Position numbers and translations under genes: made by a program. A DNA stretch of 64,000 nt, taken from contig RBZT01000480.1 of NCBI GenBank assembly GCA_003693705.1, positions 22,702-86,701 on the forward strand, read 5' to 3'. This document shows positions 40,396 to 64,000 of the stretch, piece after piece; position 1 is the first letter of the stretch; each line of letters starts with the position of its first letter. The notes beneath the pieces were generated by a model. The model worked only from the letters and a program-made list of their open reading frames with translations, did not search any database and was not told the origin of the DNA. The DNA is from Polymyxa betae (taxonomy: Eukaryota; Endomyxa; Phytomyxea; Plasmodiophorida; Plasmodiophoridae).

Positions 40396-42272
40396 TTAGA
40401 CCTCACAAACATAATTTAAATGTAAAATGAATGAAGACAATTCGGGAACCGAAGCATTGTCTGATCTCTGGATATTCCATTCAGTTCATGAATAGAAATG
40501 AAGTAGCAATGTTTGAAGTCCAGCACATCTTCAAGTAAATGCTACAGATATAGGATTGCTTGTTGGGCATTTTGCAACTGGTTCTTCCAATGGTAATGGA
40601 CATCGGATTGTTTTGCAATCCTTTTAAAACATTCTTGAAATGGTTGGTCGAATTGAGCAGCTTCTATCTGCTGGCGTTCATCGAAAACGTTGACTTCTCT
40701 GAATCAAACATTTTTGAGATTCTACAAAAGGATCAGGAATTGATTCAACTCGGTACTCACCAGCATAATTTTTCAAAATTTGAACCGAGGATCGATGGGG
40801 TGCTTCCTGAGGACCGATTGGATCGCTTGATCACACAATCTACCTCAGATTAATAACACAGATTAGATCTATAAAATATGAGAATCTTGATGTGTGCAGG
40901 CAATGCAGCTGTCCATAATGCTGTATTGAAAAATTGTATCAATACCCAGAACAATATATTTAGTATCAAATATTTGATTGTTATATCTGTAATGGACTGA
41001 CAGATCCAGCAGACAATCAAGGAGGAGGACACCCTCGTCCATAAAATGCACCAGGTGACATGTCGCTCATAAACATAGCTTTAGCACAGAATCAGCAGAT
41101 TAAGATTGTACGAGGACTTGGAGTGAAAGGATCGAAAATATTGACAAAAATCGAGCACCACATTTTAATTACATTTTCTAATTTTGAAAGAAAAATGACA
41201 AGACTTCATATGCATGAATATTACAAAGCGGGACATCTGAACTATTGTCATCCTTTTGTCATTCACCGAAAGCGGCAGCTCTTTTTGCCATCAGTTGAGT
41301 TACCTTGCTGAGCATGTTAGCTGATTTGCCTTCTGTAAACCATATCCACGGTCAGATCTGGAACGAGCCTTATTCGGTGATTGCGAGGTGCTAATTACTT
41401 GTCGTTCAACTTCCCAGACTCCAAGACTATAATCACATCGAATCTTGATGCAAATCAGACTAAAACAGATTGAATTCGATTAGTTCGCTGATCTTTATCA
41501 AGCAGGGGAGCTGTATTCAGGCACTGATGGTAACCTAGGTAGTAGCTTTTGGTGTCGATTTCTGCGACATCGAATGCAAGCCTTCTTTTGTTGCCAATGC
41601 GAAATTATCCAACAACAAGACAAATTCATATGGTGACATCACGAAACATGGAAGAGGTCTAATCATGAAACATAAAAGAGGAGGTCTAAGTAAACAATTT
41701 TAAATTCAACCAAATTATAAATACTCAGGTCAGACCATTGAACGAGAAGCGAAAGTTAGATCATCGACAAAAAAGCTTGTTGACTCTCTGACCATGTACA
41801 ATGTACTTCCATGACCTGTCATAGATTCATAGTACACTTTGGGTTGTGCAAGTAATATATTCCTTTTTCCAAACCTATTAGCTCGTTAGATTTTATATAT
41901 AGCCCATATACCGCAAACAGTAAGCAGAGTTAGAACTCGGGCTTGTCAATATAGAACATAGAGTATTCTTTATGGTGCACTTCGCAGGTAGTTGAGAGAA
42001 AAAGCTCCAACTATACCGACATCGACTAGCAATGATTGGAGTACAATCAAGTGGACGAACCTGAGGGGAGTTCAGAAAGGGAATAATTTATGTGCAATGG
42101 CTGTATGGTACATGGATCTGGAGCTCATCGTTCTCATCTCCATCTCAACTTCATCTGGAATATCAGTTATCCCGCCCGAAAGATCCCCAATAACAAGCAA
42201 GAAGTTCACGACATCTTGAAGTAAAATGACATCTATAGTGCAACGATCTCCTCTGCGTTTTCTTTAGGAGCA
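40396..42272. other. Intergenic; no supported gene
   Basis: Several short frames (40560-40853, 41060-41311, 41992-42219 on plus; 40850-41051 on minus) show no domain or leader that I trust. The frame at 40560-40853 could be a fragment of a split gene. Confidence 0.4.
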
Positions 42273-43445: not shown

Positions 43446-45963
43446 ATGGAGCAGCATTCGTCCATGCTCAACTCCATCGGCTTTGCAATCGTCTTGTTCT
43501 GCCTCTTGCATATTGCAGAAGCTGGAGACTGTTACTATCGAATAACCAATACATATCGACGTTTTGTGTCAGCGTATGAGTTGCTGTCACTTCGTAGCAT
43601 TTTTATAACCTGGCCGTTTCTTAGGTCCTGTACTGATATCGCATTTGATCAGATGAGAACCGACGTTCCAAGAGACGAATTCATTGATTATAATTCGTTA
43701 GAGGAAATCAAAATGGCCATAAATGGCGCCTCTCATAAATCGAAAGACATGTGTGTACCACATCAGGAGTCTTTTTTTGAATTCAGTGTCCTAAGCGTCA
43801 TTGTTTAATAGATACAAGGTGACGTCATTGAGGATGATATTTACAGACAGTTTCATGCTGTCGAATGGGTCGCTGTCGCCTGATCAAAGCGACAATGCTT
43901 GGCAATCGCAATTCCAGTTAATCCATAATCTGGCTGTGTATTCAAAACGTGACGACATCAAAAATTACGTCCTGTCAAACTTGGAGTACTTCCCTAATGT
44001 TGTCAAACTGTGGGAGGACGTAAACTGTAGCTGCTGCGCTGCTAACTTCTTTAAAGCCATTTGCATGGATTCCAGCTTGACGACCGAGATATGGATGACC
44101 TCTGCAAGCTGCCTGCCTTGGAAACTCTGTATTGTCACACTTTCTCAGACAAGCTCCAACCAACTGATCTGCTGATTACAGAATGTTGACATCACCCGAA
44201 TCTGAGAACAACCTGCAGAATATTCGAAAACGGCGGTGCGTTAATTGCACATTTGCTGCCCAATGGCGTTTGGCTGAAGCCTCTGCTTAGAAGAGAAGAA
44301 GAAGAAACGTTTGTTTGTAGAAAGCGTGTCAACTCAGAATCGAACAAAGAACGGCTGGAAACGTTTCAGTTCAGGTAATCAGATCCTCACACGTACTCTC
44401 GATGCTCATTGTTGCGACAGCTTTGTAGACAGCTCTGAAGTACAGATCATCTTAGAAACGGACCACCACGAGCTGCTAAAAAAACGGGCTTATCAAATCA
44501 TTCGGCTAGTGTCTAAACTAAAACAAAGGTTCCAGGAGCAGTCCACTGGCCGATCAGCTACAAAATGGAGCTTTCTGCGACGCTTTTTGACCAGCTGTCG
44601 AGTATTCAAATTCCGATCCCAATATCCTGCTAATTCCAGCTCAAAGCCGGACGAATCTAGCCTAGAAAACCATCGCTTCGCCATTTTCTGGTCGGCGATC
44701 AGATTCGGAGGGTCTATGGCAACAAAAATGTACCAGTGTTTATGACCTAATTTTTTTCACTAACTGTAGTCTTGTCGCAGAAACAAATTCTGGAAGAACG
44801 GGAGAGGATCTATATCCAATTCTAGAGAATGCGCTCCAAACAATTCGCCGTACTCTCTCAAAATTCGACATTGGCTTGCTTATTGGGTTGTATGGAGAAC
44901 ACATCTCTCGACATCTCAAGTCAAGATTGCTTTCTTGGGAGGTCTGCGTCGATTACGATCCGGTTCAGCAGCATTTTCAGTACCTTCGGATGCTCGCATG
45001 CCCTCCTCATCAGATCTACATCGCTCCTCATCTACGCTTTGCCCAACTGTTTTTGACAATTCCCTGCCTGTCGCCAGCACGGTTTCTTCAAAGCGTCAGA
45101 AAACAGCTACGATGGAAATCGATAAAGAATCGTTATCTGATGCAATTCCGTCATCTTCACTGACCAGTTCTCAACCTCTCGTTTCAGAAGACATAATCGT
45201 TCCGACAAAATGGTATGGTGCTTTCGATATATTTTCTGTAGCCTTAATATTTCTGATGATATAGGGACACAATGAGAGTTAGGTTTCAAGCGCTGCGGAA
45301 AGAATGTTTGTCTCACAACAAGCCAGTAAACGATCCCTGTTCGTCAGCAGAAGATACGATGTCACACGATCTGTAAGTATAAAAAAGTCGTTTCGATTTT
45401 GTATATAAATTCATTCGACATAGGGCTACTGATGAAAGCAGTGCAAGAGCATCCGGCGCGCTTCCCTCCTTTTGGTATGCAAACTCAAACATTCACTCGA
45501 AGGAGCCAGCCTCTACATCTTTGTCGAGCAATTCGGCCTCCAACGTTAGCTTTGGTTGTTTATGGATGTTTTATCTATTAACTCTGCATAGGAGCTGGAA
45601 TCGCACAATGCAGCATTTTCGAAAAAAACAGATTATTCGAGAGATTCTAATGCGGTTGCGTTTCCTGAGATATCCAGCACGGATAACGCTGACGCCAGCT
45701 CTGGTCTAAATCAGTCACGTATCAGTACAAGCCACAGCATCATATTTGCAATTTGCGGGCTTGCTATTTTGATATTTGTTATCTTCGTCAAACTCGCAAT
45801 AGTGTTCAAATCTGGCTCTGAAGAGGAATTCCGACTTCAACGCTCTGAGCTCATTCGGCAGATTGATCTGTTTGCTAACGCAAGGCGACAACGAGAAGGC
45901 CTTCCTCCTCTCTTTACCGACCTAGGTGACTTCTCCAGCATGCCTCATGTTAGCTTCCGCTGA
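43446..45963 (+). CDS. Type I membrane protein with conserved cytoplasmic tail, family C, copy 1
   Basis: Multi-exon (at least nine). First exons: 43446-43573, 43625-43750, 43812-44009, 44057-44128 and 44182-44235; later junctions I leave open. Signal peptide (SIGFAIVLFCLLHIAEAGDC), then CYYRITNTYRR, CTDIAFDQMRTDVPRDEFID, YKVTSLRMIF, an LRR-like LHGFQLDDRDMDDLCKLPAL and NIRKRR; further on DSSEVQIILETDHHELLKKR. Near the end a single membrane helix (IIFAICGLAILIFVIFVKLA) precedes a tail of about 50 residues: EEEFRLQRSELIRQIDLFAN ... SSMPHVSFR. Homologous, with matching intron positions, to 55597-57861 (-) and to the decayed 60984-63290 (-). Receptor-like topology; ligand and function unknown. 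Confidence 0.75.
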
Positions 45964-46731
45964 TCATTATTTATTCTATTTTTATCCCGTCATTTAACAT
46001 TAATACCTAATATATATATATATTCATTTCGTTATTCTGATCAGACTCTGATTACTTGAGTATCATAACGTTCCAAATTACAAATCAAATTTTGCAAAAA
46101 TATCAAAATAATCACAAACGACTTTGGCGGACCGGTTATGAAACCGTCATTTATCTTCCTTCATTCATAGGAAGACATGCATCACTATTTCGTTATCTTA
46201 TTGATGGTGTATCTGAAATGGACTGCAGGCCAAGCAGGTGAACGTTGTTAAACATTTCGATTACGACGAGCCTGCAGAGAGAACCTTTCTCATATCCGTC
46301 TCAGTGTATAATATCTTCATATCACTGCAAAGAATCTACAAGCGAATCGTTCAATACGTTTGGTTTTGAATATGAACCAAGCGGTCCAACAGAAATTGCT
46401 ACACACATTGAAAGGGGACAGGAATGTCAGTGGCAAGATGAGTAAATGGCGGGCTGTATTGAGTGTAGCTCAAAAGGACACAGAGAGGGCACCAAGACAG
46501 TGGAGCGGCTGCGCCGGGGCAACATGACGGGCCGCCACAACCGCCGCGTTTCATTACTCGGTCTTGCCTCTCCGAATCGAATCATCACAACACACATTGT
46601 TCTATACTTGCCCGATATTAGATCAGTATAGTGTCTTCGTCGACGATATGACACATCATCAATGTGTGGCTGGGTATCCTATCGCTGATGTCCGCTGAAT
46701 CTGATTATGGTTGATAGTTCCTTCTTCCTTG
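45964..46731. other. Intergenic; AT-rich, nothing recognised
   Basis: Includes a short (AT)n run near 46010-46022. Frames at 46056-46241 and 46446-46631 have no domain. Confidence 0.4.
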
Positions 46732-49152
46732 ATGCAAAATTGGGACATCCTTTCCGATGCCGAGAAGAATGCTGCTAAAGTTCTTTGTGATGCCGGCCAA
46801 GAACACTTGTTCAAAAACTGGCCTGCACCTGGAACGAAAGATGAAGAAAAACATCGCTTTTTAGCCCAGGCATCTGACCTTGACAGCAAATATCCTGGAG
46901 GAATCCAGGTAGGTTCACATGCGGAAATTCTACAAATAGGCTGAATACACTTAGCGCTATGTCGACAATGCAAAAAAGCTCTTGAAAGCCTCAGCTGAAG
47001 GCGTCAATCCTTTCGAAGGCTTCACTCCAAGTGTCCCTACTGGCGAAACCCTTCATTTTAACACAAAAGAACTGGACGAAGCCGAAAAGTATTTCACATT
47101 GTGACGAGGTTTTCTTTTAACAAATCGTTAGGCTGGGGATGGAAGCAATTCCTTATACGAGTTTCGTTCTGGTCGCTGGAGGTACGTTTCGTTCTTTGCT
47201 ATGCCTTGATAGCTAACATTGGATCAAAGGACTCGGAGAGCGTCTTGGATATAACCACATCAAAGTTTAATGGATTTTCCTGTTACTAATTCCTTTTCTA
47301 ACTTCGATCAGATTGCTTTGCCTGTTGATGTCATCAGCAAAAATTCGTTCATTCAGCATTACGTTGAGTTTATTCTCGCCTATCAGGTAAATTCGAAATC
47401 CTCAAGCTTCTGCCTTTACAATGTTTCGAATAAAGGATCGTGCGCGAGCTATGACCGGCAAACCAGACTTAATTCTGCCTTTGGCTATCATGACTTCTGA
47501 TGATACACACTCAAAAACTGTTGAACTGATGTCAACATACAGCTTCTTTGGCATGGAAGAGTCCCAGGTTACCATTGTCAAGCAAGATAAAGTGCCGGCA
47601 CTTATGGATAATGATGCTCACTTTGTGTTGGCCGATAATGATCCATTCTCCATTGTCACTAAGCCTCATGGTCATGGAGATGGTAGGCTTTGTGTTGCCT
47701 GAATAAGGGTTTCGACTAAGACCAATTTTAGTGCACACTTTATTACATCAACATCATGTGGTGGAAAATTGGATCAAGAATCACGGTACCCGCTATGTTT
47801 TTTTCTTCCAGGACACCAACGGTGCCGTTTTCAGAGCTTTCCCTGCTGCACTTGGAATGGTAACCTTATTTTCTCAGATTCGAGTGTAGTGAGTATAAGT
47901 TTTAATCAACAATCATAGAGTGTCAAGCGCGGATTCGAGGTGAATTCGTTGTCTGTTCCCAGGAAGGCTGGTGAAGCCGTTGGTGCTATTTGCACCTTGA
48001 AGTCAGAGAAACAGACTCTGACCATCAATGTCGAATACAACCAATTGGATCCTCTATTACGTGCAACCTACAATCCGCAAGGAGACGTGGCTGATCTTAA
48101 AACGGGATATTCTCCATTCCCAGGTTGGCAACTCTGACTACTGTCTTATCGTGTCGTCTTTAATATCTTCGTTAGGCAACATCAACGCATTGATCTTTGC
48201 CGCTCAGCCCTACAACGAAATCTTAAATGTATGTCTACTTGATTTATTTCCAAAATTCCTGTGACGTTGTTTTTCAGAAATGTGGCGGTTCCGTTCCAGA
48301 ATTTTGCAACCCCAAGTATGCTGATTCGACGAAAACGAAGTTTAAATCGCCTACTCGGTTGGAATGCATGATGCAAGACTACCCTCGATTACTTGGTAGA
48401 ACTGTTATTGTTTCCATTAATTGTTTTAACTGAGTGAATTCCCAGCACCAACCGCTAAAGTCGGCTTTACTCAGATCGATCGCTTTATGACATTCACAGC
48501 CGTCAAGAACAACCTCAGTGATGGCCTTGGTTTGTGCTTGAAACGTTTGTATTTGGTCTTGTTTGACTTGGCGTTCAGCTAAACACAAATCTACTGGGTT
48601 TTCGGAGACTGCTGGTGCCGCCGAATCTGATCTTTATTGCTTAAATCTGGCATTGCTACAACTAGGTGGATCCAAGATTGTTGCTCAAGGAGGGAAACGA
48701 TTTGTTGTAAGCTCACAATTGTATAATTATCTGAATCTAATTTTTGGGTAATTCAGGAATTCGCTGGTATTCCTGTGATTGCTGGACCTCGCATTAGCCT
48801 AGCTCCTTCATTTGGTGTGACCCAGCAAGAGATCCGCGATGCCCTCAAGGATTCGGAGATCGAAATTACAGAGCGCTCCTCATTGTTATTGAAGGGCAGA
48901 GGTACTTGCAGGATTGAGAAGATATATCTGGACGGTGCTCTGGCTGTCGACACCGTTGAAGGCAGTGCATGTGTTTTAAAATTCGTCAAAGAAGTCAATG
49001 CAGGCATGGAGCTCAAGCCTGTGAACTCCGAAGATAAGAATACTGAAGAACGGTTCTTGATTCGCGGTTATCAGCCAGTTATACACGCACAACGAGTGAT
49101 ACTCTGTTCGAAGCCTGGTGATCACAAGGTCATCAACGATCTTGCTGCCTAA
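46732..49152 (+). CDS. UDP-sugar pyrophosphorylase (USP)
   Basis: Makes UDP-sugars (UDP-Glc, -Gal, -GlcA and others) from sugar-1-phosphates and UTP in the salvage pathway. Start [20 protein letters not shown] at 46732; about twelve exons with 45-60 nt introns. Diagnostic stretches in order: [65 protein letters not shown] (nucleotide-binding loop), [76 protein letters not shown] and, in the last exons, an [13 protein letters not shown] beta-helix part and [10 protein letters not shown]. This is the promiscuous USP group of plants and some protists, not the UGP1 type. Ends at 49152. A partial second copy lies just downstream (49581-49790). Complete as read. Confidence 0.95.
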
Positions 49153-49580
49153 TTCTACGATAGATGGTTAAATGTAATGCATTTGTCTTTGTTTGTTTTC
49201 AAGTCTGCCTTAACTGCGAATCAAACGATATTTGGTAGCCTTTTCTGCAATGCCATTGATTTATTCGGTGTTCTTCCTTTCTGTTCTTCCATAAAAGTGC
49301 AAGTTGTAGCCCCAGCTTTGATAGTCCAAGTTGATATTTACCTGCGCATCACTAAACTGGGATGTTGTGCGAATCTTGGCTATTGGCAAATGCAGCAAAC
49401 TGATCATTTTGGCAATCTTTTCACTGCTGACTTGTAGGCAAGGATAAAGAAATTTTATACTGGAATTGAATTAGGTTTCATTTGAATACGTTGATTGGCA
49501 ACAAAAGAAGCACGATGTTTAAGTCCTGAACTTCATTTGACATGACATCAAGAAGTAAAACTAAGATCGATCAAAAATAT
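49153..49580. other. Spacer between USP and its pseudogene fragment
   Basis: 428 bases. An ORF at 49177-49437 has no domain. Nothing else seen. Confidence 0.4.
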
Positions 49581-49790
49581 AGTTTTCGTCAAGCAAGGAA
49601 ATGTGGTTTGCAAGTTGTCAAGGAAGACAGTTGGGGTATTGAGTTCGAGCCTGTAGACCCTAAGGGTAAGACCACTGAAGAAAGCGTCTTGATTGGTGGC
49701 TATCAGTTATAAGCTGGCAGCGACTCATACCTTGTATTTACATGCAAGGCCTGGTGAAGTGGTGATAATGTCATCGAGGATCTTGAATAA
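49581..49790 (+). pseudogene. UDP-sugar pyrophosphorylase C-terminal fragment
   Basis: Translation gives WGIEFEPVDPKGKTTEESVL then IGGYQL and a stop, matching the intact USP end ([25 protein letters not shown]). Beyond the stop, a homologous CKAW...GDNVIEDLE-like stretch continues to 49790, parallel to [13 protein letters not shown]. Only the last 60-70 codons are present; the rest of the duplicate is gone. Non-functional remnant of a tandem duplication. Confidence 0.85.
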
Positions 49791-50060
49791 TAGTTATATC
49801 TCTTCGTTGATGGAGTTGTTATTCTAATACCTATACGAATGCATTTCTCAAGTTATTCTTATCAACGATATGGTTTTCAGTTTTTCACATTTTTGGTGTC
49901 AATCTTCATTCTGCTGATTCTCATACTTGGATAAGTATCGTTGTATTTACTGCGTACAGTTTCTTTTGGTTCTTAGAACGTTTCTGCTGGCTGTCTGGAT
50001 TTTCAATCTGCTAGACCCTGTAGCTCGGCGATATCATGTTTACTGATAATCGAAGTTAGT

Positions 50061-50602
50061 ATGTCGTTCGTCGCTTATCTAACATCATTAAGGCGTGGTA
50101 CAGAGCTGGGCATTGGGCTAACTGGTGTTGGCAGTCTTTTCTTGCTTCTCGGCGTTATTCTGCTATTCGATAAAGCATTGCTAGCACTAGGAAATGTACG
50201 TCTGGAACACCTGAATTTGAAATTCTCCTGAAAATTCTCAAGATATTATTTCTGTCTGGGGTTTTGCTTCTTCTCGGTACACGAAATACTGCTAGATTCT
50301 TTTACAGGAAGGGCAAAATACGCGGAACAGTCTGCTTTTTGGGAGGAATAGCTTTGGTACTGTTTGGCTGGCCAATAATTGGGATGTCTATTGAGCTATT
50401 TGGCATCATTAATTTATTCGGGTATGCTTATTTAGTCGATTTCACTGTCCCGTTACAAATTAAACTTTGTAGAAACTTTTTTCCCATAATTATCGCATTT
50501 CTTCGGCGCGTACCAGTAATTGGGACGATTCTGAACATCCCTGGCGTCTCTCATGCTGTTGATGTTGCTATGGGTCAGATGCTACCCACTCATTCTGCCT
50601 GA
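50061..50602 (+). CDS. GOT1-like vesicle transport protein
   Basis: Three exons (50061-50195, 50243-50421, 50473-50602), 147 residues. Four membrane helices: ELGIGLTGVGSLFLLLGVIL, ILFLSGVLLLLGTR, GTVCFLGGIALVLFGWPIIG and the last around NFFPIIIAFLRRVPVIG. The motif GIGLTGVGSLFLLLGVILLF plus RRVPVIGTILNIPGV match the GOT1A/B family, small Golgi/ER membrane proteins needed for ER-to-Golgi and Golgi vesicle fusion. Length matches the family (about 138-145). Complete; introns 47 and 51 nt. Confidence 0.93.
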
Positions 50603-50850
50603 TATTGCCATCAGACATTTGTATACATAATTTTTATCTATTGAGTTTTTTCTAGCTGTATCTACTCCATCTTCTAACTTCCATTTGATGTGCGATGGTT
50701 CAATACAGAATTCGAACGTCCCATAAAAACTGATGGCATTATCTAGCGCAGCCCAGTTTAGCTAGAGCGCGGCCCTTGTTACTTTTGGTTAAGGGCACTG
50801 TTGAACATAACATAAGCTACACTTGGTTATTATTCTATCGGGGTCTCCTG

Positions 50851-51889
50851 ATGAAGGTCATCGACAAGATCAGCAATGCCAAGGAAGGGCCATTCTGGTC
50901 TTTTGAATATTTTCCTCCGAAAACCGAGGATGGTGTAAAGAACCTGTACAAACGCTTGGGGCGTATGTCACACCTGAGTCCTTTGTTTATCGATGTGACC
51001 TGGGGTGCCGGTGGCACCACATCAGAGTTGACCCTAGAAATCAGTTGCTCAGCCCAGGAGAAGTTTGGAATGGAGACGATGATGCATTTAACTTGTACAA
51101 ATATGCCTGCTGAAAAGCTTCATAATGCACTTGTCACAGCTAAAGCTGCTGGAATTCAGAACATCTTGGCGCTTCGTGGAGGTACTGTGTCTGGCAAGTT
51201 AAAAGGACTTTGGTTTAGTGTTCACTCAGACCCACCTCATGGAACCACGACCTGGGAGAAATGTGAAAGTGGCTTCGAGCACGCTGCCGACCTTGTTCAC
51301 TATATTCGTCGAGAATTCGGCGATCATTTCGGGATTTGTGTGGCAGGTTACCCCGAGGGGCATGTCGATTGCCCTGATCTGAAGAGCGATCTTCTCTATC
51401 TGAAAGAGAAAGTTGATGCAGGAGCAGACCTGATCATCACTCAACTGTTCTACGATGTTGACCTTTTTCTGGATTTTGTTAAGAAAGCTCGGCATGTTCA
51501 TTGCATTCCACTAAACCTTCAACTAACATTGTGATTTCAGAGCAATTGGTATTACTTGTCCTATCATTCCCGGAATTATGCCAATCCAAAACTATTCGGC
51601 TTTCAGACGTATGACTTCGTTTTGCAAGACGAAGATTCCAAAGCAGATCGAAGATCGCCTCGAGCTGATCAAAAATGATGAAGATCAAGTTAAAGCTTAT
51701 GGTGTCGAATTAGGCATTGAGATGTGCAAAAGGATCCTGGCTGCAGGCATACCCGGCATTCATTTTTACACATTGAATCTCGATGCTAGTGTAAAGAACA
51801 TTATCGAAGGTCTTGGTTTTATTCCTCGGAATGAAGAAGAAACTGATGGTCCAGTTACAAAACCTATTGGAGAAAATATATCTGCTTAA
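50851..51889 (+). CDS. Methylenetetrahydrofolate reductase, catalytic domain only
   Basis: Reduces 5,10-methylene-THF to 5-methyl-THF with FAD. Exons 50851-51181, 51230-51491 and 51541-51889; 313 residues. Motifs: [48 protein letters not shown] (across intron 1), [46 protein letters not shown] and PGIHFYTLN: a complete TIM-barrel. The reading ends soon after ([15 protein letters not shown]), so the C-terminal regulatory domain of most eukaryotic MTHFRs (animal, plant and yeast, about 600+ residues) is missing; the length resembles bacterial MetF. Intron 2 (51492-51540) starts GC instead of GT. Start at 50851 chosen because upstream codons are unlike the family. Confidence 0.92.
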
Positions 51890-54352
51890 GCAGCTTTCTA
51901 CCATTCCATGTTCTGATTCGTTTGTGTGCCGGAATTGCTATGGACCTTCACTGTTTTTATTCGTCCTATAGATTTAACCGTTCTCAGTTCAGCTTGAACT
52001 TATCTGCATGTGCAGCAGGTTAACACCAAGGCTACGGTAATTTGAGTTCTTGATGTTCGATTTCAGTCGTCATGATAACAGCGGCGTTTCTCTTGTCCTT
52101 GATATGCACAAGCTCGTGTTCACTCATACAAGAACTGAAAGTGTCAGGCGAACCTCCTGTGGCTTCTCCGCTTTCTCGAGATTATTTTCAGAGCAACCTC
52201 GCTGTCACTGGTTGCCTCAACTGTACTTAAAGACTTTCCGATTACAGAAGGTTCCACGGTGCCAACCTACCATCTTCGTCGACAATATTCCGATCATACT
52301 GGCTCTCGTGTCTATTCCAGTAGCAATGTTGGTAATGTTTCATGTTAGATATTCCTATCTCGACTGGACTTTTCAGGATATTACCAAGCATCTCTCCATG
52401 ATGATGCCAAATGACCTTTTCCGCCTGCTCCGGGCATTGGATTACTTCTCCCTTACCCAGCCTCAAGAAGGCCATTGAATCATTGTCCTCGCTGACGCTA
52501 ACCGTGTGTGCTGAGACTTTTGTTGATGTGTTGAATGATGCTAATCACATCGACAAACTGGGCTGCCTTCACCAGGAAATAGGACTGACAGATCATGACG
52601 AAATTCTACTGTCTGAGGTCTTTAGTCGCTTCGATTGCAAGTTTCTTTATTGTCTGGATAGAGCGTCGTGCTCACAAATTGTGACATATTTGCTTTATGA
52701 TATGATTGCGAGTTGCATTGCGACATTCTGTGAGAAGATCCGGTGCTTTTTACGTTTAATTGCTGAACGTTATCTCATGCTGTGGCTCAGGAAAAGTGAT
52801 CATCGCTCTGCCCCCGATATGATGCTGTTCTTCCTCAATGTCGAAGCCCATTTCGAATTTCGAATGTCGAAATTCTCGCATCCTGCATTGACAGTATCCT
52901 CACTGTTGAGATGCCACATCTTCAGTTACTGCTGAGTTTGGTCAAGAGCATTGTGTTTAATACTGTAATTGTATACAGTGGATATGATGACGTCAATACT
53001 GTTGTAGAATCTGATGGTGGCTGTTTACTACATCATCCCATTCAACGCATCAGGTATGACGATGCTCTGCTCGTTATGTACAAATCCAGCTTGAATTCAT
53101 GTGATATCAGTGAGTTGCCCATTAATGAAGAAGCATTTGAAACGCATAGCGAGGTCATGGGTTTGTTCTAAATCGTTGCTGTCCGAACCAGCTTCGGCTC
53201 GGTTTATCGGAAAGATTTCCATAACAAGGACTGCTTCTCGTATGCGTCCAGGCACTTAGAAACGACATGATGTACACTGACAGTTTTTATTTAAAGAGTC
53301 CTGCTGGAATTCTGGTCATGACGACTTTACTCGACAAAATTCCTGATAGCTGTCTCAACGTGCTTCATATAACTCTGTCTCAGCTTGTTTCAACTCTTTG
53401 GTACTCCAACATCCATCAGTTTCATGTACAGATGATTGATGCTGATCTTTATTTAGGTCTCAGGTCCATTTAGCGTCTTAGAGATGGACGGATTTCTCAA
53501 ATAAATTCGATTACGTGGTTACCGTGGTTTGACCATCACAATGGATTCCTGGATCAAAGCCATAAAGTCTGTCATATGTCGTATGCGACATCGTACGTTC
53601 TTGCCATTCTCACAGTGAGTCATCTCCCGATTTTCCTCAAACTTGCTCTCGTGTAAGCTTAACATTCTATCTTCAGGTTTGAAGTTGATTTTCTATTACC
53701 GCAGCACCAGCAGGGCAGAAGATTGACACAGGTTAGAAAGCATCGCTACCAACCCTTGGAAGCTTCCTCTCAGTAAATGACTGAACACTAATTCAATACC
53801 ATAGGATCGTCCCCATCCAGATGTGACCTGTGAGTTGCTCAATTATCGCTGCTTTTATAAGTTGGTTCGATGTCCAAATTACACATAAGATAAGAACGAT
53901 TTATGACAACTGACTACCAATTATTTTGTGATCAGGATATGCAGTTCGTTGACACTTGTCGATGGTAACGATGGTTGACAGAGACAATCACCGAAATGAT
54001 GAGTGATATGTGAATGAAGCGCTAAGATTCATCTCTGCTTATCAGGAAGATTGTCTGTTAATGTCAGACCGAGAAAAGGTCTGATTCAATCAGCACACTT
54101 CGAATGTAGCTGAATATGCATGTATGGTTACTGTTGTGTTATTGGGGACCCTTCTGCATGCCCTGCCCCGTTTACATGTGACAGTGCGGTCAGAGTGTCC
54201 ATGTACAGTACGTTACCCCGCACCGCACGTGGTAACATATTGCCACTGGGTCTCTACGTCAGTTATGTAACACCAAGTCGACAGAAATAGCTCTTGAGCT
54301 CGGATATCTTCGAGGCCGGTCGCTCATCATCTTGTGCATTTGCCATTTCAAC
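51890..54352. other. Poorly resolved region; possibly one multi-exon gene about 52050-53500
   Basis: Several plus-strand frames overlap in series (52050-52478, 52411-52935, 52911-53171, 53267-53473) with in-between GT...AG pairs, which suggests exons of a gene I could not assemble. One part (52270-52370) has a hydrophobic helix VDNIPIILALVSIPVAMLVM. No domain recognised. From about 54200 onward the sequence matches 59745 onward (upstream part of the duplicated unit). Confidence 0.3.
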
Positions 54353-55201
54353 ATGCCTTTCTTTTACGAATTAATCCAAACAGCCATACTCGTGTTCATT
54401 ATATACATCTTCGTTTTATGGTTGGATCCTGCACCGCGGCAACCATTGCCCACTTCTGCATCTACTACTGCACCTAAACCTACACCTGTTTCTGCTCCTA
54501 ACAAGATTGTTTCTCCCTATACGCCGGACAGCATAAGCGACGAGCATGAGAGAAGGGTTGAACTCTGGTGCCCCCCAGTTTACCATGCTGTTTTACGGAA
54601 TATCCTGAATAAGGCCACATCGGTCATTAAGAAGGACACTCCCGAAGATTTGCAAGAGATGTTTCCTTTTACAAGATTCAGTAACATTTATTACAGCCAG
54701 CGGCTTCGAAAGCAGCTTTATCAGCATGTCATTAAAGAACGCCTGCCGATTATTGCTCATTTTAGTAAGTTAAGATTCGAGAAACGCGTCGTCGCACTAG
54801 CCGAAAGTTTCAATTTTCGTTACCACAAGTTGATGAAAGAACGCGGTAATGGCCCAGCAAGGACTATCATTAATTTGCTGCATTTACTTCAAGATCTTCT
54901 CGACATCAAACTCAATTTTTTCTTGCGTGTCCAAAAGCTCAACTCAGTACCATACGCACAAACTTGCAAGCAGTTTCCAGACTTCATGCATGATTTTATT
55001 GCAGTGTTCGTAAGCGAATTGAATATGTCTATGACGCCGTATCCGTTTCCTATTGCTCTCGATCACTGTATCGTTCTGACCATTATTAAGGCCATTGATG
55101 TTGGCCTGGCCGCTGACGATTATCTCATCGGAAAAGAAGACGTTCTTAAGCATTGCCCAGATAACAAGATGACAGCAAAATCTCCACCGCGATGGTGTTA
55201 A
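54353..55201 (+). CDS. N-terminally anchored membrane protein, family N, copy 1
   Basis: Single exon; 282 residues from MPFFYELIQTAILVFIIYIF (ATG 54353). An in-frame ATG at 54332 adds seven residues; the later one aligns with the other copy. One N-terminal hydrophobic segment (TAILVFIIYIFVLWL) acts as signal anchor; then a Pro/Thr/Ser linker (TPVSAPNKIVSPYTPD) and a soluble domain of about 200 residues: VLRNILNKATSVIKKDTPED, LQEMFPFTRFSN, KQLYQHVIKERLPIIAHFSK, TIINLLHLLQDLLDIKLNFF, and a C-terminal IDVGLAADDYLIGKEDVLKH. All-helical, likely with its bulk in the lumen or extracellular. No known domain. Paired convergently with the type I gene at 55597-57861; the pair is duplicated at 59.9-63.3 kb. 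Confidence 0.75.
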   Translation: MPFFYELIQTAILVFIIYIFVLWLDPAPRQPLPTSASTTAPKPTPVSAPNKIVSPYTPDSISDEHERRVELWCPPVYHAVLRNILNKATSVIKKDTPEDLQEMFPFTRFSNIYYSQRLRKQLYQHVIKERLPIIAHFSKLRFEKRVVALAESFNFRYHKLMKERGNGPARTIINLLHLLQDLLDIKLNFFLRVQKLNSVPYAQTCKQFPDFMHDFIAVFVSELNMSMTPYPFPIALDHCIVLTIIKAIDVGLAADDYLIGKEDVLKHCPDNKMTAKSPPRWC

Positions 55202-55596
55202 CTTATTAACTTAACCTCTAATACTTAGATTCACTTAGCCTCTACTAAAATTTGGAAGTTTTTCTTATTATTTTAATGATTGGATTGCCGGTTAATCGAT
55301 TTCGAATGTTTTGCTATTGCTGAGATCTTTGGGAGGCCAGAGGAAGCTGATCATGACAATCTTAATTGTTACTTCAGAATGGTTCGATTGACAGATTCAA
55401 TGATGCATTGTCGGTCAGATTGTGAAAGCAGTTTCGCATTTGCCATGGATTGATAAAATATGGGCAAGATGTTAATCGTTAATCGAGCATTCAGGGTAGA
55501 ATTGCACATTGTAGAATATAGAAGAAACAAGAATAAAATGGCTACTATATACATAAGTGTAACTTATTGCACATAAATAAGGATTTTCAAATAGAT

Positions 55597-57861
55597 TCAA
55601 CTGAAGCTGATGTGAGGCATGCTTGAGAAATCAACCAATAGCTCGGCAGGTAAAGGGGGAAGGCCTTCTCGTAACCGCTTAGCGTTAGCAAACTGATCGA
55701 TTTGCCGCATCAGCTCAGAGCGATGCAGTCTGAAATTTTCATCCGAATCAGATCCGCGAAACGAGGCAATTTTGGCCATAACCGCTAACACAAGGATAGC
55801 AATGCCAGCCAGTACAAAAGCAACAGTATGCCCCAAAGTGAACTTCGGTAAATCGCGGCCTAAACAGTTATGTTAATAGATGCGATCAGAGAATAAAAAC
55901 GCGAATTACCTGAAATGTGTTGAGATGGGGCAAACTCTTTCTTGGAAGTCGCCGTTTGCGATTGCTTTTCCTACAAATATACACTAAGATGAGATAATCA
56001 GCAGTCATCAAACATCTCTAACGTTACAGTCAGGCGACGCGGATCCCAAATTTGCCTTATTATTGGTATTTGCAGTGAGCTCCGATCCACATTCAGAATT
56101 CAGCAGATTTTCGGCAAGTGCCGTTCTTCTCAGTCTGGCTCCGTTTTCGTTATCGGAAACGCCTATGCTGTAACAAAACACAATCATTTCATTGTACTGC
56201 AGCAAAGCCATCTAATACATTTGAACGATTGCATCAGGTTCTGATCGTCTGCGGCACAGGGAAAGTTCACATCGAGCGATTTTTCTACAAAGGGATCAGC
56301 TCAGAGTTAACGATCATGTCGAGTCCTACAGAATCACAAGAGCTTTCTGAAGAGAAGCTAATGAAGAAGCATTGCAAGATCTCCAGCATTTAGCAAAACT
56401 ACTGAAGCGAAGGAATTTAAAAAGAGAGCCTGCAGGACAAGAGACCGTTCTTCTCAAACTCTCTGACGAGGAAGTATCGGAGTCTCTCGAGAACGTGGTT
56501 GTTCTATGAATTGGAGATGTAGGCGAACGTATCATGCTTCTGCAAGACGAACGAAAATGAATTCAGCATCAAATACGATACGAAACTTACAAAACTGATC
56601 GAAATGACCAATGAAATTGTTTCAGGGAAGCCTTGATTGAGGCAAGGGAATTATTTCCAAGTCGAGCAGTAGAACGGATCCGTTTTCGAGTGATGGCAAT
56701 TGAACAAGACAAGATTAGCGACTTCACTCCATGATATCTTAACGTCTTCCTGACACCACCTGGACTAGTATGATGATTTATCTCAGTTATTTTGAAACCA
56801 GTAGCTCTAGTTCGATACGCCCGAGCACGAATGTGGTCGGGGCCAGTATTCTCCAGCACTTTCTGGATTTCAGAGCCGTCAATGTATCTAAAGCAAGTTT
56901 AGCGATGACAACCATACTCTCAGTAAAATGGGAATGAGCAACCTACCTGATATCTACAGACGATGATGACTTATTGATTCCCAAATCATCATTAATGTTG
57001 CTTTTCAAGTAAGTCGTCGAGTCCTCGCTTCTTCTTACAAATACAATTCAGATCGATGTGAATTAGTAGGGATTGTTGAAACTTACCTTCGCTTGCGAGG
57101 ATTTTGAGGATGGTTACCAGAATGCTCAGGCGAAGCAGTCAGCACCCTAAAATCAGCATCAGAGCAGCCACGCAAATGAAAATAGCATTGTCTTACAAGG
57201 TCTTCAAAGCGGGAAGGTTGCAGACGAGATCCATATCTTGTGCATTCAGCGAGAAACCATGAAAGTGCCTGACAGTAATTAGCAAAGGCGTGCTTTAGAA
57301 CAATCCACACACAATTCATTAACTTGGTCGAAATATTGCAAATTTGCTAGAACATAGGGTTTAAGGGCATCTGTCTGCGAGTAAACAGACAGATGATGAA
57401 TGTCTTGGAAATTTGAACGGGCATTCATCTGATCGAGCAACGATCCATTATGACTCGGCTTGAAATTATGTGTAAACACCATCCTGATAGAAGTTACAGT
57501 ATATCTATACATCGTCTATAAGACTGACAAGTAAAATGTGATTTACTAATACATTCATGTACATACATGGCTTTAGATGTTAAGCTTTTAGGGAAGCCTG
57601 AATCATCAGGCATCTGCAGTTCCGTGATCGAGTTGAAGTTTATAAACTCGTCCCGTCGCAGATAACTTCGAATATGATAGAATTCGGTATCGCTACATAT
57701 CCTGAAAACTAAAATCACCAGAGTGATCGCGATGATATTGGGCACCCATACGACGTTAGATTGCGTCGCTCTGTATCTGCGATACGATAATAACAATCAC
57801 CAGCGTCAACGATGGCGCAAAAGCAGATTGCGAACATTAGAGTAATAAACAACTTGACCAT
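55597..57861 (-). CDS. Type I membrane protein, family C, copy 2
   Basis: Reads from 57861 downwards: signal peptide MVKLFITLMFAICFCAIVDA then GDCYYRIADTERR, the same start as copy 1. Exons by homology: 57755-57861, 57567-57701, 57313-57504, 57197-57268 and 57087-57146, with intron positions equal to copy 1. Matches include SDTEFYHIRSYLRRDEFINF, YTVTSIRMVF, LHFHGFSLNAQDMDLVCNLP, NPRKRR, YIDGSEIQKVLENTGPDHI. The end has a membrane helix (VAFVLAGIAILVLAVMAKIA) and tail DENFRLHRSELMRQIDQFAN...DFSSMPHISFS. The middle (about 55850-57000) has multiple exons I did not join. Function unknown. The promoter side has a (CT)n run at about 57910-57926. Confidence 0.75.
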
Positions 57862-59893
57862 ATCTTGTCTAATAAGCAGAGAGAGCACTTGCAAGCAATG
57901 TCTTTATTGCTCTCTCTCTCTCTCTGATCCTTCTGTTCTGTATTAGTATAGAGACACCCCCACATAACCGTTGGGGTGGCCCCATGAGCGACTCGCCCGA
58001 ACATACTCTGTAGCGCCCGTTGTCCCTGATGGCTGCGCCCGTCCCTCCCAGTCACTCCATGCTGGAATCGGCCTCCTCCACCAGTTACTTGCATTGACTT
58101 GGTCAGTTTAGCTTCGGCTCGGTCGTCGTTTTAGGTCGTCCATTCTTGGATTGTCTACTGTCCTCTGATTTTGCTCACGAATGATTTCTCGAACTCCATC
58201 CATTACCGTCAATGCGGCGCATGAGGTATGTTGTCCCGTTGGGTATAGTATGACCGCCTGAGCTTTCCTCATTTCCGTCCATCATTGCAAAAGAATGCCA
58301 ACGTAATAAACCGATTCAATATGCTGGCTTCTACAAGATAGTTCGGATGCGTAATTGAAGACTTCACCACGTTGAAATCTTGCTAGGTTTTCGAATCCTG
58401 TTTGATTTTAATGATGCACACTCATCATCAATGTTATTGTTTATTGTAACATTGGTCATTGCGAAAACTTCCCACGATCACACGACCTCTTTTTTGTAGA
58501 CAACGAAAATGACAGATTTAGTTATTAGTCGCTTTGGGCCTTAGAGACAGCTCAGCTTCTCGAAGCATATATGAATGCCTTGAAAAGAATGACGATTTTT
58601 TTATCCATTTTCGTTCGAAGATGATACTTGATAGCTATCTTGATACTCTGGTTGCGTTGACACCAAATGATCACAAGATCACGACCGTCACTATTGGAAT
58701 TGATGTTAGAGGCCAAAGGTTAGTGGCGAATATAGGCATTTCCTAAAGATTAAGCTATTGTTTTTATCTTACTATCTGATAGCTATTCGTGGTTCTTCAC
58801 CTCCCTGAATCTGTGGAATGTTGACTTCTCTTTCATGTTGCTGTAGCTGGCAGCGATTTTCAAATCTTCCCTACATACATCACGTCAAGTCTTTCGTTAT
58901 CAATAGTGGCGCTAAGCTTGCCGTTGCAGCCAGGCAATGGCGAGTCTTGCCTGTACAATGACGCCAGCTTGGCCGTAAGCTATATTCGAAAGTTGATGCA
59001 GCCGATAATTATTAGGTACGGACGTAGATGACGATTATACTGGTCAGCGACATCGACAAGGACCGAGTTGTGACAATATTATATCAAAGACAATGATGAG
59101 CCACTTATTCTCTCTCGCTGCGAATCCCACGATGGTTGCTAAGCAGAACGGAAAAATAATGGTTGCAGCCAACGAACGTTGATTTTGACTAAATAAAAAT
59201 CAAATGCCCTTTCGAGGCAGGGTTCTTATTATGGAAGATATCCGTTCGTTAAGATATACACTGTCAACAGTGGCCGCTGGTCGCCCAGAATCGATAACTG
59301 TGAAGTATTATTCGAACGAGATTGCGCATTCGAGCGGCGTCAGCCAGGATGTCGGGTCCATGCTGATTCTAATTCCTGACAGCAGTTCGAGGGAGGAGAA
59401 AGAAGCCATTATTAAGGACCTCAAGAATCAAATGGAAGGTAATGGTTCCTCTCGAAGTTTATTTCCCTGGGTAAATAAGCGGTGAACTTGTGAGATTTGT
59501 GTCCAGTAGCACTAAACATTGAGCTCTTGATGCATCAGAACAAAGCATAGCGACAATTGATTCTGCAATGGAGGCAGTAAATGATAAAATATCCACTCGG
59601 TTGTCACATTATCAGGACAAACTCATCAAATGATTTCGTGGAGAAGGATAATCTGCCTCCAGTAGATTTGGGGATTGGGACCCTTTTGGGGGAAACTCAG
59701 TTGGACTCATCAGCAAGATTATCGCATCATGCATAGCGTATACGTTACGGGGTCCCTCATGCTGTAGGCGGTAATATAGCGTCACTGGGGGGTCCGCCCC
59801 CTATGTAACACCAATTCGACAGAAATAGATCCCTATAACTTGGATGTTTTCGAGACTGGCCACTCATCATTGAGTGCATTTGCCTTTTTCATC
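57862..59893. other. Intergenic between the two duplicated units
   Basis: Contains a (CT)n run (57910-57926) and, at about 57945-57985, a GAGACACCCCC...GGGGTGGCCCCAT motif also present near 63426-63450, i.e. in the 5' flank of each family-C copy. Frames at 58534-58746 and 59204-59485 (GRVLIMEDIRSLRYTLSTVA) are unassigned. From about 59745, the flank of the next family-N copy begins. Confidence 0.4.
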
Positions 59894-60695
59894 ATGACGT
59901 CCTTGTACGACCTTATTCAAACAGCCTTGTTGCTGATCCTAGTATACACGTTCTTTGCATGGCTGAATCATGCATCATTGCCTGCTCCTGTACCAGGTTC
60001 TGAAGAGATACTCGGCACGTTACGACCTGTAATCGAAACTCATGTTTCTTATTTTGATAAAAGGGAGAAGGGTAGATCTCTGGAGCCCCCCGGACCATGA
60101 TCATTATTTATTGAAGGTTCTGAATAAGGCCACAACTATCAGTAAGGCGAACACTCCAGAAAATTTGCAAGAGATGTTTCCTTTTGAAAGGTTCAGCAAC
60201 GTTGATTTCAGCGAGCGGTCTCGAAAGCAGCTATATCAAGATTTTAGAGAAGAGCGCAAGAAGGTCACAGCTGGTTACAATGAGATAAACTTCGAAGCTC
60301 GCGTCTTCACGCTAGCTAAAAGTTGTAATGCTCGTTATCACAAAATCATCAGAGAGCCGGGGAATACTCCCCATCAGAAGATCTTTAATCTGCTGCATTT
60401 ACTTCAAGACATCCTCGATATCAGAATGAATTTTTTCCTGCATCTCCAAGATCTCAATTCGGTACCATTCTCAGAAACTCGCAAACAGTTCCCAGGCTTT
60501 GAGCGAGATTTCGATGCGACAATTGTTAGCGAATTGAATTTGTCCAGGACAACGCATTCTTTTTCAATTGCTTTCGATCAGTGTATCGTTCTGACGATTA
60601 TCAAGACCATTGATGTAGGCCTGGCCGCTGACGATTTTCTCATTGAAAACGAAGACGTTCTTAAGCATTACCCAAACGGTATGCCCAGAGAATAA
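59894..60695 (+). pseudogene. N-terminally anchored membrane protein, family N, copy 2, frameshifted
   Basis: Starts MTSLYDLIQTALLLILVYTF (ATG 59894), homologous to 54353. After a linker the frame ends in GRSLEPPGP; the neighbouring frame takes over at GRRVDLWSPPDHDHYLLKVL and runs to 60695, matching copy 1 (ERRVELWCPPVYHAVLRNIL). Aligning the DNA shows copy 1 has GAGAGAAGGGTTGAACTCTG where copy 2 has GAGAAGGGTAGATCTCTG: two bases fewer near 60064-60078. Downstream domain is well kept (NLLHLLQDILDIRMNFFLHL; IDVGLAADDFLIENEDVLKH). Either a recently broken gene or an assembly error; an intron is unlikely since copy 1 has none there. Confidence 0.75.
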
Positions 60696-61420
60696 TCTCC
60701 TCCGGCATCGCGATAACATTAGTTGATTATCATAAAATCAATTCGAAAATTCTTCTCTATCTGCAATGATTATACTTTCGGTTCCTCGCCATCAATGCTG
60801 TCTGCTGAGAGAGTTGGATACCTACGAGAGACGAAGCTGGCATGGGCGTTCGAATTGTTGCCTACTCAGGTCACTTACATTTGCTTTCAGAAGCAGTTTC
60901 ACTTGGCATCGACTCGCTGATTATCATCGCTGACACAAAGCTTCCCCTGTAGTGAAATATTTTATTTTTGCAAGAAGAAAAAACTACGATACATACTCAC
61001 ACGGTTGGTTATAACTGAAGCGGAAGCGAGATATGGTTGGGATCATAACCGGCAGCTCGGGAGATAAAGGGCCGCTTGTTGATGGCCCAGTGCGCCGCAA
61101 TAGCTCAGGGCGCTGCAGTCTAAATTCTTCGTTTGAATCAGATCCTGAAAGTGTATTTCGGTAACTCGTTTTTCTGAATCGATGATGTGACCGGAAACTT
61201 AAAAAACGCAAAATTGCTGGAACTGTGTTGAACGGAAACGGCCAGGCTGATTTTTGAAGACCGCCGTCTGCGATTACTTTTCCTGCAGATAGAGGCTGTT
61301 TCAAGTGAAAATTCCGATACGCATATATCGATACCTCCAATCAGATTTCAGCATCCGCAATATTTATCGCAATAAATTCTATGGACCATCCGAATAATCC
61401 GATGGTCAATAATTGAATTA

Positions 61421-61935
61421 CCGTAGAGAACAAAATAAAACCACGCATTTTATAACGCCACATGGTCACAATGGAACATTAATCGTTAGCACATGCAAGC
61501 AAGTGGAGAACAAAAGTCGCCTTCACGCGTGTCGATATAAAGTCATGTTACCTGTAACATGTCACATTTCGAACAATGCGGGCAAAATTCGTGGGCTCCA
61601 GATGAATCTAGACTTGAGTCTCATTTGGCGTCGTTAGAAGAAGAAGAAGATTCGGTTTATGCGCATATGATACAGTCAAAAGGTACAATTAATTTGGCAT
61701 AATTGCAGTATACGCTAATGTAAAACTCTGATAATACAGAACAAGATTTCGCATTCGTTTTCAATGACGAAGTTTGGGTTTAGGGCTAGGGCTTCAGCGC
61801 TTTTTTATCAGCGAGAACACAATGATGGCACATGGCATTTTTTAGAACACAATTTTTGGCACATCCATTTTTTTAGAACATAAGTTTTTGCTCCACAACG
61901 CCAAAATTTTTGTGGTTTTATTTTGTTCTCTACGG
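61421..61935. mobile_element. MITE-like element with 24-bp inverted repeats, TA target sites
   Basis: A perfect inverted repeat starts CCGTAGAGAACAAAATAAAA at 61421 and is mirrored at 61912-61935; each side has TA outside (61419-61420, 61936-61937). At 515 bp, no transposase gene. Sub-terminal sequence contains repeated TTTTTAGAACA motifs (about 61827, 61852, 61871) and a GGGTTTAGGGCTAGGG motif (61776). TA duplication places it with Tc1/mariner MITEs, but its ends differ from the element at 88-1106, so it belongs to another family. It sits inside the decayed family-C copy 3. Confidence 0.85.
61776..61791 (+). repeat. Degenerate telomere-like GGGTTTAGGGCTAGGG
   Basis: Inside the MITE-like element. 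If other copies of this element carry it, the window's telomere-like motifs may in part be spread by transposition. Confidence 0.5.
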
Positions 61936-63290
61936 TATATCGATAGAATTCAGTCGGCTAAATCGCGCGCGGAGCCTCCACGCAACTTATCTGAATTTAA
62001 TCTCCTTATTCAGTTGCCATGAATGTCTGTATTTCATGCTTGAAACACGCACTTTCTCTGCGTTCTATTTTATCTAGGTATATAAATGCCAGCTTGAAAC
62101 AGCCTCATATACGAATGAAAATTGACAATGAAGGCAATTTATAGCGCTCGAAACTGGAGATGCAAATTTTCGACTTTGCAGCATCTGCCGTAGTGTATAC
62201 AGGTTGATCTGATTTGCTCTTCATTCTTTCAAACTTCTGTCGTTATCAATAGCAGCTGACGTGCAGCAAGAGAGCAAAATCCGTTTACAATACTGTATTA
62301 GAGAAATTGCATCAGATTTTGGTGACCTGCGAACAGAATAAAGTGTTAAAACGGCGGAATTTGCAACAGGAAAACGGTCGGCCGTCAGATCTCGCCTAGC
62401 GCTGTGATCGCTGCAAGTTGAAAACGGCTCCTCCTCACACTATCTGCTAGCAAAGCGCCTGAGAAATCAGTTGAAGACGCTGCGGTTTGCAATAAATAAA
62501 AGCGCAGACTATCCAAAAATGCTCATGCAAACCAAGCAATTCAATTAGTGGCACCCAGTACAAAAGGACACTTACAAAAATTGACCGAAATGACCAAGCG
62601 ATTGCTTCCTGTTGGACCAGATCGAGCAGCAGTATGATGGCGATAGAATAAGTTATTAGAATATGAGCGTCTTCACAGGATGATATGTTATCAACTTCAG
62701 CAAGATTCCAGCTGGATTGAAAAGCCTCTTGACCACAGCAGTTTTGGCAGCCTGGATTTGGTCTGAGCGGTTATACTCCACACTATCTGGGCACCAAAGA
62801 CATCTAACTATTTGAATCAGTTGTTAAGCATGGCCTCAATGACGATGAATACGTCGTACCTAATCTGAACTGATGATGGTGTTTGATTCCCACATTCTCT
62901 TTGTTCAGTTTCTAGTACGTTGCCGACTCCTCGGCCCCTCCAATGAAAGCGATGCAGATTGAAATGAGATGATATAAACGATCATGCATTCTGGCAGAAG
63001 TTCTAAGGAATCTTCTGTAATATCCCAGTTGGGCTGTCAGCATTCTCCAATCAGCGTCAGAGCAGCCAGGCGAAATACAAACGACTATGCCTTATATCCT
63101 AGAGCGGGAGTTGCAGAAAAATTCATTCCGAATCTTGTGTATCGAATGAAAAACATCAAGGGCCTGACAGATTAATACATGATAAACCTCAGATTAAACC
63201 ACTCACCACCCATTAGCTTGATGATACTATTGCAATTTGCTAAGGCATACTGGCTGCGAATGGAAGCCAGACGGTGTAAGTGTTGAGAAT

Positions 63291-64000
63291 GAGGACTCCT
63301 CAAACTCTTGAACCCCTTATCTGGTCTCGATTCTGGCCTAATAAGCAGCCAGCAGGCTGACCCATCTTACGAAATGTCTGCCGATTTGTCTGTCTCTGGT
63401 GATGATCTCTCTCCATATAAGTGTAGAGACACCCCTTGGGGTGCCCCATACCATAGGACAGACTTCCCGCATGGGCTGCACCCATCAAGTCAAACCAGAT
63501 TTGTGGCTTCTCTCATTCTCCATTGGTGACAGATTTGCTCATAAATGCCTCAAGCTCCAAGCGTCACTGAAGACTTTAAATTTGCCCTTTGGCTGTAGAA
63601 ATCTCTCCATTGGTAAAATACAGGAGGCAATTCAATTCGACTCTGCTTTGAATGATTGATGAGCATTCTATGAATTTTGGTTTTGCAATATCATGATGAG
63701 GTTATTGATTGTTTAACATTGTGTGATTGTATGACTTCTAATGGTAATTCCACAGATAATAACAGATATTTCTCTAAGTTGAAAAGGCGAGCGATGATAG
63801 TTTAAATTTGAGAATTTCACTAAGAGGGTGGTCCAAGTAGAAAGAGGTACCGACGCTCTCTAAATCGACCAATAAATCGACCAATGCTCAATAAAACGAC
63901 CAATGCGTAAATACTGCGTGATGCACTGTTGAATCCCTGTTATCGCGCTGGATTTTATTTGCAAGCTGAACTTCATGTCATGGCAATGCAATCGCCATCT
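63291..64000. other. Right end of window; flank of decayed copy and dispersed repeat
   Basis: A GAGACACCCC...GGGGTGCCCCAT motif near 63426-63450 marks the 5' flank shared with copy 2 of family C. From 63495 the dispersed repeat begins. Frames here (63308-63659) lie in the repeat and are not called. Confidence 0.45.
63495..63745 (+). repeat. Dispersed repeat, copy 2
   Basis: Matches 14500-14845 in reverse complement: TTTGTGGCTTCTCTCATTCT, AGACTTTAAATTTGCCCTTT and CATGATGAGGTTATTGATTG. It begins right where homology between the two duplicated membrane-protein units ends. Confidence 0.75.

Follow-up and report, generated by a model that had tools for sequence, protein, structure and literature searches.

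What do two intron-rich genes on one contig of Polymyxa betae encode, and does the short tail at the end of both proteins point to a fixed cytosolic partner? We analysed a stretch of 64,000 nucleotides, referred to here as the window (positions 22702-86701 of contig RBZT01000480.1, C410, in assembly GCA_003693705.1; the assembly as searched comprises 24.4 Mb in 541 contigs). An earlier note on this DNA described a lineage-specific receptor-like family with copies at 43446-45963 (+) and 55597-57861 (−), a GDCYYRI start and an approximately 50-residue tail; the coordinates, the start and the tail are as described. The two copies are paralogues, each appearing as a chain of short open stretches (stop-to-stop frames) interrupted by GT-AG introns of 40-62 nt. 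Our reading, held with belief and doubt in about equal measure, is that both intact genes encode a lineage-restricted, receptor-like membrane protein with leucine-rich repeats (LRRs).

Gene structure and transcript-type support

In a spliced two-genome alignment, introns 1-6 have the same position and phase in both copies, all phase 2, where the earlier note had proposed at least four. Intron 7 agrees in order and phase, although the sequence around it aligns only weakly; a phase-0 intron preceding the last linker may also be common to both copies.

When a 410-residue model of copy 2, its linker partly omitted, was compared with 5.8 billion proteins, P0001 (397 aa, from a 1909-nt contig) was the sole protein at E ≤ 10 among 6565 candidates; no plant protein was returned. 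The source label of P0001, lgn, presumably means assembled public reads. From MVKLF onward, P0001 is identical to copy 2 in 388/388 residues once introns 1-7 are spliced out and intron 8 is left in. Its start is a genomic GTG codon read as Met, in the manner of bacterial-style gene callers. Because such callers do not splice, the contig behind P0001 is most likely spliced RNA, and P0001 can be taken as RNA-type support for introns 1-7 and exons 1-8 of copy 2. For the MTHFR gene of the window (50734-51886, +), too, there is a spliced counterpart, P0002, whose source is of the same type; with P0002 alongside P0001, RNA of this species is probably public.

The copy 1 model was built from the spliced alignment and then refined using P0001. 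For copy 1 exons 8-10 and copy 2 exons 9-12, the models rely solely on splice signals and reading frame. In 22 of the 24 model exons the chosen frame had a better codon score than either alternative sense frame, and an antisense frame outscored it in 6/24; the test is a weak one, as stops penalise a frame and the chosen frame is stop-free by construction. A first automatic linker model, with implausible mini-exons, was superseded once P0001 was known. On the strand opposite exon 8 of copy 2, open frames were interpreted as shadows of a Ser-rich stretch.

Membrane anatomy and the LRR ectodomain

A hydropathy scan over 19 residues, with the threshold at 1.4, marks exactly two segments of each protein as hydrophobic, one N-terminal and one directly ahead of the tail. 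This agrees with the single C-terminal membrane helix expected from the earlier note. Judged by hydropathy, the signal-like N-terminus and one helix segment would make both products single-pass (type I) membrane proteins. No kinase domain was found: the tail is only about 50 aa long, and neither Pfam nor NCBIfam gave a domain in it. Nothing in the NCBIfam search exceeded a cut-off.

The LxxLxLxx pattern is visible by eye in two adjoining repeats of exons 3-5. A match to LRR_14 in copy 1 (E 0.0015, 17.8 bits) lies under that family's cut-off of 40, and the domain scan of P0001 returned no LRR match. In both copies, the phase-2 introns 3 and 4 split the first Leu of xxLxLxx, and exon 4 measures 72 nt. 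Phase-2 introns at the first Leu, together with repeat-sized exons, are a frequent though not universal trait of LRR genes, and both copies carry it. AlphaFold2 predicted beta-alpha repeats in the copy 2 core, where the block spanning P0001 residues 121-180 has a predicted local distance difference test (pLDDT) score of 75-91; the structural neighbours of this core are largely LRR proteins. An AlphaFold2 model of P0001 alone had a mean pLDDT of 36. Together, the motif spacing, the 72-nt exon and the modelled block suggest that the ectodomain is LRR-like.

Tail conservation, proposed working and alternatives

Identity between the copies is 35/49 in the tail. It is 7/20 in the signal, 26/58 in exons 1-2, 82/150 between the end of the signal and the start of exon 5 (hereafter exons 1-5), 56/92 in the LRR core, 16/41 in the basic loop of exons 5-6, 23/96 in exon 7, 9/29 in the helix and 54/151 in the linker, whose alignment is unreliable. 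The tail is therefore the best-preserved segment by identity, above exons 1-5 (one-sided Fisher test, p=0.027) but not clearly above the LRR core. DNA similarity at the 3' ends (45810-45963 and 55753-55597) begins close to where the helix segment finishes and breaks off at the stop codon, bounds that fit selection on the encoded tail.

In the working that we propose, a signal peptide would be followed by a short Cys-bearing N-terminal cap (GDCYYRI...C) and an LRR solenoid of about five beta-alpha repeats, broken by a basic RKRRR stretch. A variable Ser/Thr/Asn-rich linker, a single membrane helix and a cytosolic tail of 50 residues would complete the protein. The LRR face would most likely bind a ligand, either external or lumenal. 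The tail may dock a putative cytosolic adaptor or trafficking protein through the charged RSELxRQIDxFANAxRxREGLPPL segment and the end motif DFSSMPHxSF. The gene structure, the splicing of copy 2 introns 1-7, the hydrophobic segments, the similarity of the tails and, as far as searched, the restriction to two loci are observed; we infer the topology, LRR fold, tail-exon join, surface location, ligand binding and tail partner.

Several findings weigh against this reading. The P0001 product stops ahead of the tail: at residue 363 it departs from the full copy 2 model, and 25 residues on, before the helix, it ends. The joined exons of the earlier note are thus backed by P0001 through exon 8 of copy 2, but the join to the tail is without RNA support here. 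These observations would suit a mainly released ectodomain, in which retention of intron 8 yields an LRR protein that is secreted and not membrane-bound, and the tail belongs to a minor isoform or a separate product; the tail search of 5.8 billion proteins, which found no tail-bearing protein, points the same way. However, with intron 8 retained, about 1730 nt lie between the start of P0001 and the stop codon of the tail, a length that fits in the 1909-nt contig, so the transcript may well extend through the tail exon. The helix and tail frame is also kept in both copies, and intron retention seen in a single contig can be noise. We regard a mainly released ectodomain as quite improbable. A bolder variant would be a lineage-specific LRR receptor system in which one gene yields two products by keeping or removing the 56-nt intron, namely a membrane receptor with a private DFSSMPH tail code and a secreted, tail-less LRR decoy; this is a long shot.

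The remaining points concern the tail itself. Its identity does not differ significantly from that of the LRR core (one-sided Fisher test, p=0.14), which makes the contrast between tail and ectodomain milder than the earlier note claimed. Nonsynonymous (dN) and synonymous (dS) rates were estimated by NG86 (Nei and Gojobori). The tail gave dN 0.168 and dS 1.13, a ratio of 0.15 (bootstrap 0.05-0.37, finite in 1874/2000 resamples), and exons 1-5 gave dN 0.336 with dS near saturation (pS, the proportion of synonymous differences, 0.75), making their ratio of 0.07 a nominal one (bootstrap 0.07-0.27, finite in 1029/2000). About 20 of 34 synonymous sites differ in the tail versus 77/103 in exons 1-5 (Fisher test on rounded counts, p=0.086). 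Synonymous change is thus lower in the tail too, and the dN/dS comparison that the earlier note had suggested shows no extra tail constraint; the high identity may partly reflect lower divergence rather than stronger constraint. A tail under no special constraint, with 3' ends that are simply less diverged, for example after an earlier gene conversion, in a small family undergoing decay, would account for these values, and one of three copies has indeed decayed. Yet the two limits of the similarity, the stop codon and a point close to the helix boundary, are not ones that a conversion tract would have to respect, and the tail dN/dS is still about 0.15. We consider a tail under no special constraint a rather poor prospect.

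A further alternative keeps the membrane protein but changes its role. As a cargo or sorting receptor of the secretory pathway, the protein would bind lumenal cargo through its LRR part, and the tail would be a coat- or adaptor-binding sorting signal instead of a signalling element. Such a role would suit a short tail that has no Pfam or NCBIfam domain and whose C-terminal end motif is fixed in both copies, but a known sorting motif was not recognised in the tail by eye, no motif search having been made. We hold this to be unlikely, if still worth keeping in mind beside the receptor-like reading.

Family size and lineage restriction

A degenerate codon pattern for DFSSMPH matched the assembly exactly twice and its reversed control 0 times. 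Own-genome searches with the tail, the copy 2 start, the copy 1 ectodomain and P0001 returned only the two loci. All four missed a decayed third copy, seen in the window self-comparison, so other decayed copies may exist. As far as searched, the family consists of two intact genes and one decayed copy, all on the same contig; the word family in the earlier note gains this third member, but no larger set was found.

The copy 2 tail region, searched against the same 5.8 billion proteins, gave 173 candidates, none at E ≤ 10; this search reached only proteins of about 94-297 aa sharing 5-residue words, and a shorter tail-only entry would escape it. The tail-based search thus brought no further relatives among these proteins or in the genome beyond the two loci. 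A helix-and-tail profile gave a single chance-level match in the PDB, a ribosomal protein (E 1.3). With P0001 as the sole protein match, the proposed lineage specificity holds as far as searched, the intact genes being restricted to two loci of this genome.

The decayed copy and its surroundings

Coordinates of all gene parts and neighbours are collected in Table 1.

Table 1. Positions in the window of the two intact genes, their parts, the decayed copy and the neighbour genes.
Feature	Position	Strand	Remark
Copy 1 gene	43446..45963	+	11-exon model, 667 aa
Copy 1 exons 1-6	43446-43573, 43625-43750, 43812-44009, 44057-44128, 44182-44235, 44291-44374	+	
Copy 1 exons 7-11	44421-44729, 44781-45212, 45265-45372, 45424-45544, 45592-45963	+	
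Copy 1 LRR core, exons 3-5	43812..44235	+	exon 4 exactly 72 nt
Copy 1 membrane helix segment	45727..45813	+	hydropathy peak 3.0
Copy 1 tail	45814..45963	+	49 aa, C-terminal end DFSSMPHVSFR
Copy 2 gene	55597..57861	−	13-exon model, 548 aa
Copy 2 exons 1-7	57861-57752, 57701-57567, 57504-57313, 57268-57197, 57146-57087, 57033-56947, 56887-56591	−	
Copy 2 exons 8-13	56539-56403, 56346-56289, 56248-56219, 56167-56023, 55970-55910, 55859-55597	−	
Copy 2 LRR core, exons 3-5	57087..57504	−	exon 4 exactly 72 nt
Copy 2 intron 8	56347..56402	−	56 nt; retained in P0001 source, so that translation ends ahead of the helix
Copy 2 membrane helix segment	55750..55836	−	hydropathy peak 2.69
Copy 2 tail	55597..55749	−	50 aa, C-terminal end DFSSMPHISFS
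Decayed third copy	~60987..63250	−	broken matches, internal stops, shortened tail, inserted element
Element inside decayed copy	61419..61937	.	~520 bp, 26-bp perfect inverted ends, TA at borders
Neighbour gene next to copy 2	54236..55201	+	60% protein identity over 204 aa to copy at 60033-60692
Second neighbour-gene copy	59780..60692	+	adjoins decayed copy
Decayed neighbour-gene remnant	40416..40688 (C410:63117-63389)	−	upstream of copy 1; 31% identity, two internal stops

The third copy matches copy 2 in blocks at 61094-61145 and 63033-63242. In tblastn searches, nothing there matched exons 1-2, a piece of exon 7 contained two internal stops (E 0.12), and the tail was 8 residues shorter and without DFSSMPH (E 6.6e-4). 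Two copies and one remnant make up the neighbour gene family, and this contig carries all three; the first copy had no Pfam match, and an N-terminal hydrophobic stretch is seen in the gene product by eye. Because the decayed copy adjoins the duplicate of copy 2's neighbour gene, the two-gene block at 54236-57861 was probably duplicated to 59780-63250. A dispersed repeat joins 14497-14843 and 63494-63747, on opposite strands, in two blocks of 91% identity each; its second location is upstream of the decayed gene.

Other features of the window

Larger unnamed genes form a tandem pair on the + strand (33482-34387 / 36652-37836 and 34535-35206 / 37926-38585), 32-35% identical in two blocks; 33482-34387, the only block scanned, had no Pfam match. 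The inverted ends of an element of about 1 kb at 86-1108 hold CTCCCTCCGTTCAAAAATAAGTGTC, and the 25-mer occurs 4 times in the genome at ≤2 mismatches, all exact and two of them in the window. We take these ends to resemble plant Stowaway/mariner ends, and the element may reflect transfer from, or contact with, plant DNA.

Among marker sequences, COX1 gave no match in the assembly, and a tree built from 53 of at least 120 MTHFR hits did not place the MTHFR gene of the window. One Spongospora subterranea primer from PMC12855457 had no exact match; a Polymyxa primer listed in its table matched once, with 2 mismatches, at a site where Rfam detected no rRNA. A universal 18S stretch matched at the end of a contig, in which Rfam recognised nothing.

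Relation to known LRR proteins and implications

F-box-type LRR proteins such as SKP2, D3, TIR1 and FBXL17 are intracellular and carry an F-box. The pair described here differs from them in its hydrophobic N-terminal segment and its membrane helix. Plant LRR receptor-like proteins and LRR receptor kinases combine a signal peptide, an LRR part and a single helix. In rice LRR kinases, the LRR exons are 72 nt long and phase-2 introns interrupt the first Leu of xxLxLxx (PMC3050792). The pair would share with plant LRR receptors this overall layout, the 72-nt exon and the phase-2 introns at the first Leu, but it differs in its few degenerate repeats, its lack of a kinase domain and a tail without match. 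The LRR genes of one protist show a strong phase-2 intron bias and are lineage-restricted (PMC6564038). The pair resembles them in both respects, whereas its exons 3-7 measure 54-309 nt, none of them 90, and only two intact genes were found.

This locus indicates that the phase of introns and the presence of a 72-nt exon can reveal a likely LRR membrane gene where domain libraries give no match above their cut-offs. Should the tail indeed have a fixed binding partner, it would offer a small handle on a lineage-specific signalling or sorting route.
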